This document shows positions 12,364 to 18,300 of a stretch of DNA of 64,000 bases, in pieces; the first letter of the stretch is position 1, and each line of letters begins with the position of its first letter. The stretch spans positions 1,178,001 through 1,242,000 of the forward strand of contig CM066915.1 of assembly GCA_033964015.1 (NCBI GenBank), read 5' to 3'. Origin of the DNA: Scolanthus callimorphus (lineage: Eukaryota; Cnidaria; Anthozoa; Actiniaria; Edwardsiidae). A model generated the notes under the pieces. That model was not told the DNA's origin, searched no databases, and worked only from the letters and a program-made list of their open reading frames with translations. A program made the position numbers and the translations under genes.

Positions 12364-15300
12364 CTAAAACAACAGAAAACACGACATTGAGATTATACTG
12401 TACAATTGCGAAGTAATATTCGGGCGCGAGGTACAAGTCCAAACGGAACTTTGAAGCGGAGCTGAAGCGCCGTGCGAGCGGGGCACCATAACCCAGAAAG
12501 AACGTAGAGTGTCTAAAGTGTAAGCAAGGTTAACAAGGCCGGGGTTCAATTTCAAAATCACGCAGGCACGTCGTCGAAGGCGAAGTGATTATCGGTGAAT
12601 AGTCACAGAGAAGAAGTCAGAGCCTGAGGTGATACATTGTTTTAGTATAATTGCTCAAGAGACTCATCTGGTCTTTAGACAAAAACATTGTTTTTGTTGG
12701 ATTTTTCACGACCATAACACAACTCACGCATACTCCGAATGCTTTCAATGCTTTAGTCACCGATACAATTCCAGCGCGTGAACGGAGCATAACCATACCT
12801 GTCCGATTTGCTCGCACATTTTAATGTTCTTTGGGTCCAACCTCAACTCGTCAGGAATTTTCTGCTTGAGTTGCTCCAGTGCTGTCGCATCCATCCCGTG
12901 GGTTTCTGGCAAAGTTGCGCCTGCCGCGCTTCGTGCAACCGCTGGTGCTAGTGATGGTTGAGCCTGCGTGCTGCCCGCCTCTGAAATATCGAAGCAACAC
13001 CTCTGTTATTACGTGGAATAAATGCAAAATGACCAACAAAGTATTTTAATACTTCTGAAAGTGAAATCTCATTAGGCTACTTTCAAACCTAAAGGCCGGG
13101 CAAAACGATAAATGTTGAGCGTCTTAGTTTCTCAACAGCAGTTCCTACAGTCTGAATTTGTCATGTGCAGAGCTGTGAGATCAAGCCGGCCACTGCCGGA
13201 GCTTCGGCGACTACTTCACGTTTAATCGCCGGCTACTTTTTGCCGAATGCGAGACACAACAATTCGAACCACAGAACTTTGTTATAATATGCAGCCTGAA
13301 GATCACCTCATTGTTTGCGCCTGTGTCAGAATGGGCTTGGCGAGGAAACTAACTTGTTGCTTTGAAGCTATGAAACTTGCATGTCGGCCGTCGGTTTTTC
13401 TTTTGCAGCCGGCTACTTTTTTTGAGCAGCCGCCTACTTCAAAACATTCAGATAGCTCTGCATGTGTAGGGCCATTGGTGTGCTTTATGTAAAACGAGCA
13501 TGGCTTTATAATCAGTTCACTGGTAAATAATCTATGCATTTTTTGAGATGATATATAATACATCTATGCGGCATAAAACGGGTTTAAACGAGAGCATTGC
13601 AAAATAAAAAACTGGAATCCTTAAATTGTAGTTCCTCTTAAAAATCTCCCAGCTCCACTCATTTGTCAGAATTGGCTTGGAGAGGAAAGTAACTTGTTGC
13701 TTTGAAGCTATGAAACTTGCATGTCGGCCGTCGGTTTAAAAGAGAACATTGCAAAATAACATTAATGGAATAGCCCATTTGACTAAATACCTTTGCTCGG
13801 ACTCGTGTTGTCGGCCATGCATGCCAGAGCTTGCATCTCAATATCGTCGGTGCCATCTACATCCTCTTCTGTAGGGGTACTAGCCAACAGGGTGGACGTG
13901 GTGGATTCCACAGCAGACTGTCCGTCCCATAAGGGTAGATTCGCTGGGGGGTGAAGACTACTTGGGGGTGGAGCATCTTCCATGAATCTACTGCTTGAAG
14001 CTTGGGATGCACCCTCTGTCCGCGAGGACGTGCTGGCAACAGGGTGGTCCATGTAGCCAGAAGGGCCTCCCATTTCGGTTTTCTTGCACGCTGCTTCCTC
14101 ATGGGGTAGATACCCAGATGCTAGAACACTCTCCGCTAGACGAGCGGTAAAGTGGCTCGTATGATCTTCCAAGATCGCTCTATTAGAAACAGAGTGCACC
14201 ATTTCGCGCGATAAATCTTTCATACTGGTTTTCTCCGATGTGTCCCCGGATGGTAGTGCATTCCCTGCTAGTACACTAGTGGTTCCAGAATCGGCATCCT
14301 CCACCACAGACTCACTGCCGAATGGCAAAGGAATATACCCAGTAAACGGATCCTCAGCAGCTCCAGTACTTGTCTCCTGACACTTATGTTCATCTGAGCT
14401 GTCGTCTATTGGGTAACCTTGATTTTCGTTAGGTTCTACAGCTTCAAACTGCATCTCATCTTCGGCATTGCTGCTACAAAGTTTCTGCAACGATTCAAGG
14501 TCCATGACATTTTCTATTTGTGATCCTGGACCTCTTCCTGCCGTTGCCAAACTTTCCAGTGGCTCTTGGTTGGAACGTGCAGTGTTTTCTTCCGTGTCTG
14601 CTGCTTGATCGCTCTTTGGACTGTCCTTAATCTCTTTTGTCTGCTGTTTCGTCTGCATGTCCGTGACTTCCTTACTCGCATTCGCTACACAATGACTACT
14701 CAGGAAGTCAAACATTCCCTCCTCCGATATTCCTCCTGCTTCCTCCTCAAAATCATCCTCTACACTCGTTTGCTGCTCGGTAAACATATGTTTAGAATTA
14801 TCTTCCTCCGACGCATCCTTGTAATCATAGTCGTTAACATCCTCGTCTATTCCTGGGAGAGTCCGTGTCTGCTGTTCAGCATCGCTCGGTAGCTTTATCA
14901 AATCTGTAGCTCCTTTGCCTCTGTCCTCGCTAGGATTACCCATTGCATCACCCGTCATTTCTGTTTCACTATCCAGCCCAGATGGATCAACATAGCTATT
15001 CACTTCCTCCGCCTTCACGTAATCTGACTCTGATGCGACGCCGATCTTTTCGGAATTCGAGCTTGCAAGATCGGGTCTTTCAGATGACAAATTGCTTAGG
15101 AATCCCATGGCCTGTACTGCATCGTCTAAGGGCTCTTCCGTATCCTCTCTTCTTCCAACCGCACTGCTTTCTTGTATATTTTTAGTGTGAAGTGTTGAAG
15201 CTGACTTCACAGTCAGATCACCCAGGAAAAGTATCGCGGGGTCAGATTCCTCTGATTCCTCGCTAAAGAACCCGTTTTCCTCTAGGACGTTCTTAGCCGC

Positions 15301-18300
15301 GCTGTCTTCGGGTTGTTCTACACTAGAGTAATCTATGTTTTCCCCTGCCAAGAGGCGCAGCTCCTCGAGAGCAGCTAAGCTAGAATGCTCTGTCGATTCA
15401 TTTTTCATTTGGCTATCCACACCGTCAAGATTTACTAGGCTGCTATTCTCAGAAGAAATATTAGCAGCTGCACTTGGAGGTTTTACTTCGCTATCAACAT
15501 AAGAGGTAAAATCGTTGTGAAAGTTAACAGGTAGGTCGTTGATTGGTGCGTCATCTGGAAGACAGGGTTCATTGAAGTCTACAAATTCATTCTCCGACTG
15601 GTTATTTGATGGCTCATTGCTGTTCCCATGTACAAACCGAGCCAGATCTTGCAAATCCAATGCCAGTGACTCGGAGTTAATAGTGTTCCCAGTGGTTTGT
15701 GCACTAGATTCAGCGCGCGTACTATCGCACGCTATTCCTCCGTGGTTAACCCTCCCCTGTCCGTCTATCTGTCCATACTGTCCATCTAAGTCATTGCCTT
15801 CGAGAGCTGACGTTCGAGTATCACTTTCAAGGATCCCATCCTGATTGATAGGTGCTTGTGGCGCTGTTGGGCTTCCGGGCGGCATCTGAGTATGACGCTC
15901 TTCCAGTGTAGCTTTCGCATAGCGGGAAGGAATTACCGTCATCTCGATGTTGTTCAACATCCTAGCGTATCCGCCACCGCTGCTTTGAGATGAAGTGCGG
16001 CGAGTCCGAGTGACATTCGGGAACGAGGTCGTTCGAGACAGGCTTATCTTACGGGGTGCCACAAGGTTCTCGAATGGGACCATATCGTTTTCTTCCATTC
16101 CTGGAGGGGAGCCAGGGTCTGAGAGCGTACGATAGAGGTTCTGCTTGCCGGCGATGACTAAAGAGGGGTGCAACGAGAGGTGTTCGGTGGTGTGTGGGTG
16201 TGGCCCCGTCAAGCAGCTCTCACACTGGTCTGTGGTGGAGTCAGCTGCGGGCGAGTTTATGCCATGGTAATTACCATCGGATAACTGATGGGAAAATAAT
16301 AAGCAAATTTAGCTAAGTTAATGGAGGAACTGGTCTACCAGGGTATTTTAGCAAGCGTGTTGGTTCTCAAAGGATTGCTGACAACACCGCCTTTGCCAGC
16401 TTCGACACGGCTGCTCTGGGCGGCTTTCTGTGGTTAGCAAGGAGACCTTTTGCGATCGGGCTCGAACCAGGGCTCACGCTTCCACTCGGCTCGCCATGTG
16501 TCCTACTACAGAGAAACCTCATCAAAACTCCTGCCTTTTCATATCAATATTCACAAGAAAACGAACGAAACTATTCAAATGTGCACGCAAAACCGTTTTC
16601 TGCTGTGTGTTACAACTGGGTATTCGCACTTTTTTGACCTTATATGGTAAAATAATGGATACCATTTGGATGTAATTCTAAAGAATGATGGAAACCATTT
16701 GGATGTAATTCTAGAGAATGATGGATACCATTTGGATGTAATACTAGAGAATGATGTATACCATTTGGATGTAATTCTAGAGAATAAGGGATACCATTTG
16801 GATGTAATACTAGAGAATGATGGATACCATTTGGATGTAATACTAGAAAATCATGGATATCATTTGCATGTAAGACTAAATAATAAGGGATACCATTTGG
16901 ATGTCGGGCTGCTCCTGAGATTTTCGCGCCTCGTGTTTCCGTGTTATTTCCTGTTCCCAGTCCTCTAGCTCGGTCACATCGTCTGGTAACAACAGGCATC
17001 GGCCTTCCTGGTCGAGGGAAACGTCTGGACACAACAAACATGACGAATAAATATAAAAAGTCCGCTCGTTATCAAGGAAGTAGTGTGGGCATGGAGTAGT
17101 TAATGAACGCTCGAAAGCATAAGACTAAAGCCCGGTTCATATGTCGTGCTTTTGCCGTGTTGAACCTAATTGCCAATTTGGGTCGACCCAAATGCATTAG
17201 GATCGACGTTGATTCAAACGTCGTGCCGATTGTCGAGCCTAATCCACAAAACCTTCGGGTTTTTTTTCAGTTTTTGGTCACCGAATACTCATTAGAATGT
17301 TAAAACCACTCCCAATATGAAATCCCTAAAACGTGTCGGCAAAGACGGGAAATTTCAGCCAAAATGCGGCCCCCAAGTTTGACATTTTCACAAGCTGTCA
17401 ATCGCGCGCGCACTATGAACTGGGCCTATTAGATAACAAGAATCCCCTGTTTACCTTTTTCTGCCAATGAACGCAGAGTGGACCTGATTTCATCAAACGA
17501 GACTCGTCTCTAAAAGAAAAAGTACAGCGTTATTAGTCATGAATATATATCTTATTATATGGTTTTTCATAAAATTTGGGTGGATATTTTACGAGTTGCG
17601 AACATATTTTCCTAGCCCCGCAGGAGCGAGGGAAAATGCGAACAACGAGCAAAATGTCCGCGCGTATTACATGAAACAAAAAATATCTTGTGAGCTATTT
17701 ATTATCGACTGATACAAATAGTGTCTTGTCTTTTCAAGATCAGGGCCAGACATTAACATTTTTCGCTAGGTGCCACTGGCGACCAATTAAAAAAAAATTA
17801 GTCGCCAAAACGCAATATTTAGTCGCCACGTAAGGGTGGGGCACCATTTGGCGACTAGCTCTAAGCTTTGGGTCGCCAATCCCCCAAATTTAGTCGCCTG
17901 GTCTCAGTGTCGGGCCCTGAAGATCTAGTTTTTTTTCTTGTGAAAATATCAAATTATCTTGCAACAACAATACTTACGTCTTCGAAACTCTCCCAGCACC
18001 TATGTAGCAACTCAGACACACCCTCGGGGATGTTTGGCCTAGAAAAGGTATTGTAAAACGCTAAATAATGTATTAGTGATAGATACGTTGAAGTACCGAA
18101 GTCTTTACGTCCTATCAGAACCAGTCCATCTACTCCACACGTCTAGCCATATTCACAGGAGTAGAAGAGTCAGGAGCCCATCAACAGGAGCCTCCATATA
18201 CTCCACTGAGTCCAGCCATATACACAGCATTACAAGAATCAGGAGCTCATCAATAGGAGCCTCCATCTAATCTAATAAGTCTAGCAATATTCAGAGGAGC

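Follow-up and report, generated by a model that had tools for sequence, protein, structure and literature searches.

Does a Janus kinase (JAK) of a sea anemone carry some 900 residues between its inhibitory and its catalytic half, and, if it does, how might the one still control the other? The question is raised by a 64-kb stretch of the Scolanthus callimorphus genome (G000:C5:1178001-1242000, hereafter the window), taken from an assembly of 597 Mb in 302 contigs, in which a sequence-only reading had placed an 831-residue exon between the pseudokinase (JH2) and the kinase (JH1) of a JAK. Inhibition of JH1 by JH2 underlies JAK2 V617F disease and the drugs directed at the pseudokinase, and a natural JAK with about 900 residues between its halves would offer a ready test of the need for close JH2-JH1 tethering. 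We assembled the gene exon by exon on the minus strand (exons E1-E10 and E12-E30, the number E11 being left free), and its domains follow the order FERM-SH2-JH2-JH1. Judged from its sequence, the gene is almost certainly a hexacoral JAK to which the exon in question, E22, is internal. The best overall explanation, which we consider probable, is that a module formed by E21 and E22 supplies most of a long, acidic, disordered JH2-JH1 linker acting as a tether.

E22 is an open, spliced and weakly constrained exon

E22 (16284-13791, minus strand) lies within a stop-to-stop open frame of 841 codons (16308-13786) and is bounded by CAG/TTATCC and AAAG/GTATTT. Its 2494 bp amount to 831 codons plus one base, so that it is entered in phase 0 and left in phase 1, and the neighbouring exons fit, E21 (17024-16894) ending in phase 0 and E23 (12980-12799) starting in phase 1. 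At the base composition of E22, 841 open codons would be expected by chance with a probability of about 10^-19, and the five other frames carry 23-70 stops. A search of the anemone's own genome with the E22 translation (E<=10, best candidates scored) returned the exon itself and one other place, C76:399194-401668, which is 93% identical; this copy retains the AG and GT and has 815 open codons, against 831 in the window. Splice sites at both ends, a long open frame and phases that fit the neighbours, all asserted by the sequence-only reading, are found in both copies. With the C76 copy, which looks allelic, as the sole other genomic match at E<=10 among the best candidates scored, an origin of E22 from a transposon was rejected.

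Between the two copies, the ratio of nonsynonymous to synonymous substitution rates (dN/dS) is 0.50 for E22, compared with 0.20 for E2-E10, 0.12 for E12-E21 and 0.055 for E23-E30. A block of 33 residues (682-714 of E22) is swapped in the C76 copy for a shorter, dissimilar, in-frame stretch. When this block is left out, 69 changes remain in 796 codons, 35 of them at third positions, and 31 are synonymous where 21.0 +- 3.6 would be expected at random, a count reached in 26 of 5000 simulations; counted in each of the two shifted frames, those 69 changes include 18 and 19 synonymous ones. The synonymous excess and the dN/dS between the copies indicate that E22 is under purifying selection, which is weak, as expected for a disordered region.

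A long linker in four hexacoral proteins

Relatives were sought with the full-length protein as query and JH1 scored, among 4873 candidates of 0.55-1.75 times the query length, JAKs shorter than about 1,079 aa falling outside this range. The best 120 of 2883 hits include three named hexacoral relatives, Nematostella LOC5516063 (1925 aa), Oculina LOC144636662 (1879 aa) and a Stylophora pistillata protein labelled 'EGFR' (P0007, 1522 aa), and further ones may be present among the hits without a name. By its domains and linker the last of these is a mislabelled JAK of the long-linker kind; its record is N-terminally incomplete, with most of the FERM domain gone. A profile search with three full-length proteins re-found only two of its three query rows, plus three other kinases.

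Profiles of JH1 and JH2 served to determine the linker length of 124 proteins (that of the C76 copy and 123 from the database), of which 109 had a simple JH2-then-JH1 order; the 15 with other domain orders were dropped, and the sponge Corticium, with 135 residues, was set apart. Between profile boundaries the linker measures 904 residues in the C76 copy, 877 in Nematostella, 841 in Oculina and 781 in Stylophora, against 28-158 (median 116.5) in 104 other proteins, which by their names seem to be mostly JAKs or hopscotch. Boundaries set by flanking sequence give 923 residues in the window, 907 in the C76 copy, 879 in Nematostella, 847 in Oculina and 788 in Stylophora. The linker of the window exceeds E22 because E21 and part of E23 also belong to it, the 875-codon module E21+E22 (phase 1-1) making up most of the 923 residues. 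In this the sequence-only reading is corrected. Its statement that described JAKs have a short linker holds for vertebrates (about 15-30 residues in the relevant passages of PMC5770812), but is too narrow, as named insect JAKs reach 158. In all three other named hexacoral proteins the long segment sits between JH2 and JH1, the position that the sequence-only reading had wished to see confirmed elsewhere.

The domains that make the gene a JAK

We call the gene a JAK because of its architecture and its FERM domain, with JH2 as support. Pfam matches of the FERM domain stay below the cut-offs (FERM_M 0.011, Jak1_Phl 0.008, F1 0.12). By HHalign, a profile of three hexacoral FERM domains matches one built from 16 JAK-type proteins (12 named bilaterian, 4 unnamed) with Prob 99.9 and E 3.6e-34 over 291 columns, a control comparison of the linker profile with the JAK FERM profile giving 0.3, and the FERM-SH2 stretch matches that of JAK2 with a phmmer E of 3e-9. 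The SH2 domain between FERM and kinases (Pfam SH2, E 1.1e-16) has the FLVR arginine in all four hexacorals and finds its best solved-structure matches in SYK/ZAP-70. JH2 reads HGRL for HRDL in all four, the HRD aspartate being lost, and has arginine at the place of the beta-3 lysine in the three aligned proteins and, by pattern, in Stylophora. JH1 retains its catalytic residues, with VAVK, HxDLAARN (HKDLAARN in Oculina) and DFG in all four and tandem YY in the C76 copy.

In pairwise comparison with single domains, JH1 scores highest against ZAP-70 (208 bits) and SYK (204), followed by ErbB2, CSK and ABL (185-190), with JAK1 JH1 at 150; when whole chains are compared, the lead goes to an EGFR tandem construct (346) and to JAK1 (214), because each matches twice. 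Single domains of BMX (101), ITK and ABL (90-101 bits) likewise match JH2 better than JAK1 JH2 does (47). In a tree of 48 kinase domains, whose groups were named after it had been inspected, the JH2 domains of four hexacorals, one sponge and 13 bilaterian JAKs (18 rows) fall on one side of a branch with support of 100/96.6. The position of the gene in this tree marks its source as a hexacoral. The JH2 branches are long, the sponge row is flagged as long and odd in composition, and without that row the group is neither recovered nor rejected (approximately unbiased (AU) test, 0.426), so the grouping could be helped by long branches. Hexacoral JH1 with JAK JH1 (AU 0.363) and hexacoral JH1 with SYK, ZAP-70 and Shark (AU 0.158) are likewise neither recovered nor rejected. 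The test speaks against a clade that unites the two kinase domains of hexacorals to the exclusion of all others (AU 0.023).

SYK and ZAP-70 consist of tandem SH2 domains and a kinase, without FERM or pseudokinase. Membership of that family was rejected, since FERM, a single SH2 and JH2 are all present here, and the higher single-domain scores of ZAP-70 and SYK are no proof of it with the tree undecided. The softened JH2 evidence leaves our confidence in a JAK unchanged, as the identification depends on FERM, on the order of the domains and on the long linker shared with the relatives; the claim that E22 lies between the pseudokinase and kinase of a JAK is upheld, with the caveat of the long JH2 branches.

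Composition and conserved motifs of the linker

The linker of the window contains 18.4% Asp and Glu, with a net charge of -101, and the four hexacoral linkers range over 13-19% and -50 to -112, all being disordered by the charge-hydropathy rule. AlphaFold2 gave the E22 frame alone a mean predicted local distance difference test (pLDDT) score of 35.6, with 824 of 841 residues below 50, in a single-sequence run, which often yields low values. The description of the segment as acidic and disordered-looking is thus sustained.

End to end, the window and Nematostella linkers align with a score of 276, where the highest of 200 shuffles is 98, and those of Oculina and Stylophora with 796 against 119. 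The distal part of the Nematostella linker is also homologous to that of the window, if barely (113, shuffle maximum 110). The Nematostella-Oculina score is reached by 4 of 200 shuffles, the Nematostella-Stylophora alignment is not significant (74 of 200), and hexacoral and sponge linkers do not align. What the four hexacorals share lies within the first 135 residues, near JH2, namely an EDWE box starting at linker residue 15 or 21, followed by two serine sites. The sites read RTLSDP and RTTSFP in the window, RTLSDP and RTTSYP in Nematostella, KTFSHP and RVSSCP in Oculina, and KTFSFP and GVSSCP in Stylophora, so that site 1 is [RK]T[LF]SxP in all four and site 2 R..S.P in three, at spacings of 32, 32, 35 and 34 residues, respectively. 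In the window, by hand count and on the minus strand, site 1 occupies 16131-16114 and site 2 16035-16018. Both are of the RxxSxP type, a 14-3-3 consensus.

How such a linker might work

A Gaussian-chain estimate suggests that JH1 would experience JH2 at an effective concentration of tens of micromolar with a linker of 900 residues, against millimolar with one of 30, a drop of about two orders of magnitude, so inhibition would be weakened, not lost. The linker may accordingly be pictured as a long tether across which JH2 still inhibits JH1, in cis or in trans, at lower effective local concentration; whether JH2 inhibition acts in cis or trans is itself listed among the outstanding issues in PMC5770812. 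Uncoupled geometry, which the sequence-only reading had considered, is like the tether an inference. With some 920 flexible residues joining the inhibitory and catalytic halves, the kinase is probably switched on and off in another way than human JAKs.

The conservation of the serine sites at the JH2 end suggests a phospho-switch, and a tether with a serine switch is an extension that we put forward tentatively. Basophilic kinases would phosphorylate the two serines, which follow shortly after JH2 at a distance of 32-35 residues from each other. By analogy with RAF, a 14-3-3 dimer might then bridge both and so set how tightly the halves are held. Upon release JH1 would work in trans, and linker tyrosines, once phosphorylated, may dock SH2 proteins, for which the case made by the tyrosines is suggestive and weaker than that made by the serines.

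Several observations weigh against this picture. dN/dS reaches 0.83 in the last quarter of E22, after 0.28, 0.64 and 0.35 in the three before it. The E21 donor (ATG/GTATCC) is weak, at 4.6 bits against a median of 7.8 and among the lowest four of the gene's 28 donors, the E22 acceptor scoring 6.1 (median 8.1) and the E22 donor 8.7. The alignment of the window linker with that of Oculina is borderline (124, reached by 1 of 200 shuffles), that with Stylophora is not significant (56 of 200), and the distal part aligns with neither coral (83 and 150 of 200). As to the serine sites, both corals have Lys for Arg in site 1, Stylophora lacks the basic residue in site 2, and RxxSxP is only mildly enriched by count (2 in the window against 0.23 in shuffles, p 0.02; p 0.08 for [RK]..S.P), so the weight of these sites rests on their conserved position. 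The STAT families PF02864 and PF01017 gave no single-exon match in the anemone's genome; the control genomes gave none either, which makes this result uninformative.

Competing explanations of the linker

A different use of the linker, which we regard as possible though less likely than the serine switch, is that it serves chiefly as a docking scaffold: JH1 would phosphorylate its tyrosines in cis or trans, recruiting STAT, other SH2 proteins or its own SH2, and the kinase would thus bear its own receptor tail. The acidic linker of the window carries 15 tyrosines, the SH2 domain has its FLVR arginine in all four hexacorals, and GY[ILVM] motifs exceed shuffled expectation in three of the four (3 against 0.17 in the window, 5 against 0.16 in Nematostella, 3 against 0.11 in Oculina). 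Those of the window, by hand count, are GYI (TGYIPL, 14340-14332), GYL (SGYLPH, 14115-14107) and GYM (SGYMDH, 14058-14050), all on the minus strand. Eleven patterns were tried, and this one was picked after the sequences had been inspected; Stylophora has none, and the Nematostella copies derive from a tandem repeat. The STAT3-type motif YxxQ shows no enrichment (the window has 0 where shuffles give 0.67), nor in the window linker do YxN, [ST]P, P..P or [DE].Y among the same 11 patterns, and the exon-wise search for STAT, uninformative as it was, found none.

Rather unlikely, in our judgement, is a passive spacer, tolerated at any length and grown by drift, of which only length and acidity are kept. 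The relaxed constraint on E22 relative to E12-E21 and E23-E30 would fit it, as would the 33-residue block that differs between the copies and the distal parts of the window and coral linkers that do not align. A mere spacer would not be expected to preserve, across four species, EDWE and two serine sites with almost constant spacing, or significant end-to-end homology with Nematostella, barely so in the distal part.

We hold as speculative the combined proposal that the 790-920-residue linker replaces two things at once: the tight JH2-JH1 geometry, by a 14-3-3-clamped, serine-gated tether, and a missing cytokine-receptor tail, by repeated GY[ILVM] docking sites read by STAT or by the kinase's own SH2. 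Were this receptor-tail-in-kinase design true, hexacoral JAK signalling would be switched by serine kinases and self-scaffolded.

More doubtful still is that splicing makes two JAKs of the locus, E20 being joined directly to E23 in a conventional short-linker form, with the long form as an isoform. The E20 end and the E23 start are both in phase 1, and E21+E22 measure 2625 bp (875 codons), a multiple of three, with a weak E21 donor in between; such a phase match arises by chance about once in three, however, and the three other hexacoral database models include the linker. E22 is in any case no simple cassette, because skipping it alone shifts the frame.

That E22 is an independent gene lying within the JAK locus, or that gene prediction produced the long fusion artificially, we consider very improbable: the E22 frame alone has no homologue at E<=10 in the protein database (7989 candidates scored, 0.55-1.75 times the query length), but the splice sites at both ends, the phases that fit in both copies and the like segment between JH2 and JH1 in proteins of three other hexacoral species contradict it, and a gene of its own, which would have undone the proposed architecture, is not what the sequence reveals. 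The reading of the linker as a tether between JH2 and JH1 is the one that we prefer.

Gene model, second copy and surroundings

On the minus strand, E1, the first coding exon, with the start of FERM F1, occupies 36535-36305 (ATG at 36535, MPKSL...QTVK), and the FERM domain continues through E2-E7 (32731-32510, 31496-31354, 30358-30167, 30035-29946, 28680-28576 and 27907-27808). The canonical SH2 is encoded by E8-E10 (27438-27405, 26731-26500, 26419-26371) and the JH2 pseudokinase by E12-E20 (25179-25056, 24354-24259, 23402-23254, 22396-22312, 21166-21024, 20261-20099, 19843-19800, 18038-17978, 17509-17455). E21, with 44 residues, begins the linker and contains the EDWE box (LEDWEQ, 16968-16951); E23 holds the final 48 linker residues and the start of JH1, which is completed, with the tandem YY and the stop codon, by E24-E30 (12363-12301, 11990-11852, 10132-10038, 9190-9125, 8834-8692, 8033-7907, 7647-7471).

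In the bases of the window alone, a single open frame runs through E2-E10 (E5 from 30027) and another through E12-E30, with GT and AG at every junction, and the frames of E10 and E12 do not match. The second copy accounts for this. Of 50 kb, the aligned part of C76 (386380-429570) is collinear with 37-44498 of the window and about 91-99% identical outside tandem repeats; all 29 exons are present with conserved splice dinucleotides, and they form, unedited, a single frame of 1,962 codons from ATG to stop, in which E5 begins at TTTAG/CATTACAG (window position 30035). Two homopolymers of the window each lack one base that C76 has, one in E4 (near 30174, TT for TTT) and one in E12 (near 25170, CC for CCC); these may be either assembly errors or real allelic differences. 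The first can be read through in the window if an acceptor 8 bp downstream is used, the second disrupts the reading frame from SH2 to JH2, and both are distant from E22. A missing exon E11 between 26371 and 25179 was considered and is unneeded, the frame of C76 running on from E10 into E12. Other small contigs, too, look like partners of chromosomes in the list of kinases (C80 and C108 with C10), so that C76 probably represents the other haplotype, as an unpurged haplotig; a recent segmental duplication is a possible alternative.

Directly after E21 stands a 33-bp tandem repeat of 7.7 copies (16651-16904). Counted by eye, five of its roughly eight units read exactly CCAAATGGTATCC, the first unit being the E21 donor itself, so that the donor sequence recurs exactly four more times within its intron. 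A 69-bp minisatellite of 22 copies (18125-19653) lies in the intron that separates E18 from E19. An open frame with thrombospondin type-1 repeats (37132-37830, plus strand) lies divergently, about 600 bp from the JAK start codon, and BTB-BACK and Kelch pieces at 232-930 and 4206-4823 (plus strand), convergent with the JAK gene, are probably one KLHL-type gene.

The gene in the light of earlier reports

The protein is, on its domains and linker, a JAK of a build that we found in none of the open-access papers searched and that is common to the four hexacoral proteins examined. Among the titles and abstract openings listed from that literature we found no JAK with a long insert between JH2 and JH1, and in the same literature no study of Nematostella LOC5516063 or of the Oculina and Stylophora proteins; the main text of PMC7535936 makes no mention of JAK, and the matches to JAK and Syk in PMC3923803 fall in its reference list, 'JAK' there as a part of 'Jakarta'. 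The architecture had been announced as undescribed, and nothing we found speaks otherwise.

Published statements on JAKs in early animals diverge. A 2026 survey (PMC13203501) denies the detection of JAK in Coelenterata in its discussion and affirms it in a sentence of its results, and cites an older report of JAK in Cnidaria; in these passages it is inconsistent on the point. A holozoan kinome study of 2021 tabulates JAK as emerging in vertebrates (table in PMC8662651), a passage in PMC11193209 credits cnidarians with most Jak-Stat components and notes no functional studies in non-bilaterians, and PMC6040629 describes, in the part concerned, a JAK-STAT pathway that mixes families older and younger than animals. 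JAK is defined by four domains in the corresponding passage of PMC3296744. Hexacoral and sponge proteins with the full FERM-SH2-JH2-JH1 order (the Stylophora record being without most of FERM) bear on the origin of JAK, and they stand in databases as 'uncharacterized' or 'EGFR'. Two EukProt proteins, P0004 and P0006, combine a FERM-like N-terminus and SH2 with two kinase domains that both have HRDLAARN and DFG; against the JAK FERM profile HHalign gives them Prob 97.2 and 96.6, and against the hexacoral one 5.0 and 18.3, with 0.2 and 2.0 for the controls P0012 and P0010. They represent a JAK-like build without a dead kinase, perhaps a state before JH2 lost its activity.

Comparison with known systems

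With the Janus kinases (JAK1-3, TYK2 and insect Hopscotch) the hexacoral protein shares the FERM-SH2-pseudokinase-kinase order, FERM homology, a degenerate JH2 and tandem activation-loop tyrosines. Vertebrate JAKs have an SH2-like domain, unlike the canonical FLVR SH2 of the hexacoral gene, whose ZAP-70-like JH1 also matches several other tyrosine kinases better than it does JAK1 JH1. The linker of 923 residues contrasts with the 15-30 or so given for vertebrates in PMC5770812. A short linker is the usual condition in JAKs and does not define them. Among single domains of solved structures, SYK and ZAP-70 come closest to the hexacoral JH1 and SH2. RAF and other 14-3-3 clients have two RxxSxP-type sites in a disordered segment beside a regulatory module, a resemblance that here is one of motif only.

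The sponge protein, Corticium candelabrum LOC134180227, has the same FERM-SH2-JH2-JH1 order and a JH2 in the same tree group; it differs in a linker of about 135 residues that is not acidic and contains one RSFSDS and no RxxSxP. A model of it based on an alignment of 20 rows has folded domains (mean pLDDT 73) and a linker, 789-911, that stays below 50; the best Foldseek match of this model is JAK1 (7t6f, E 1.1e-51, TM 0.34), the domains matching and their arrangement differing. Nematostella LOC5516063, Oculina LOC144636662 and the Stylophora 'EGFR' differ from the anemone's protein in the diverged sequence of the distal linker, and share with it the domain order, the long linker, EDWE and the serine sites.

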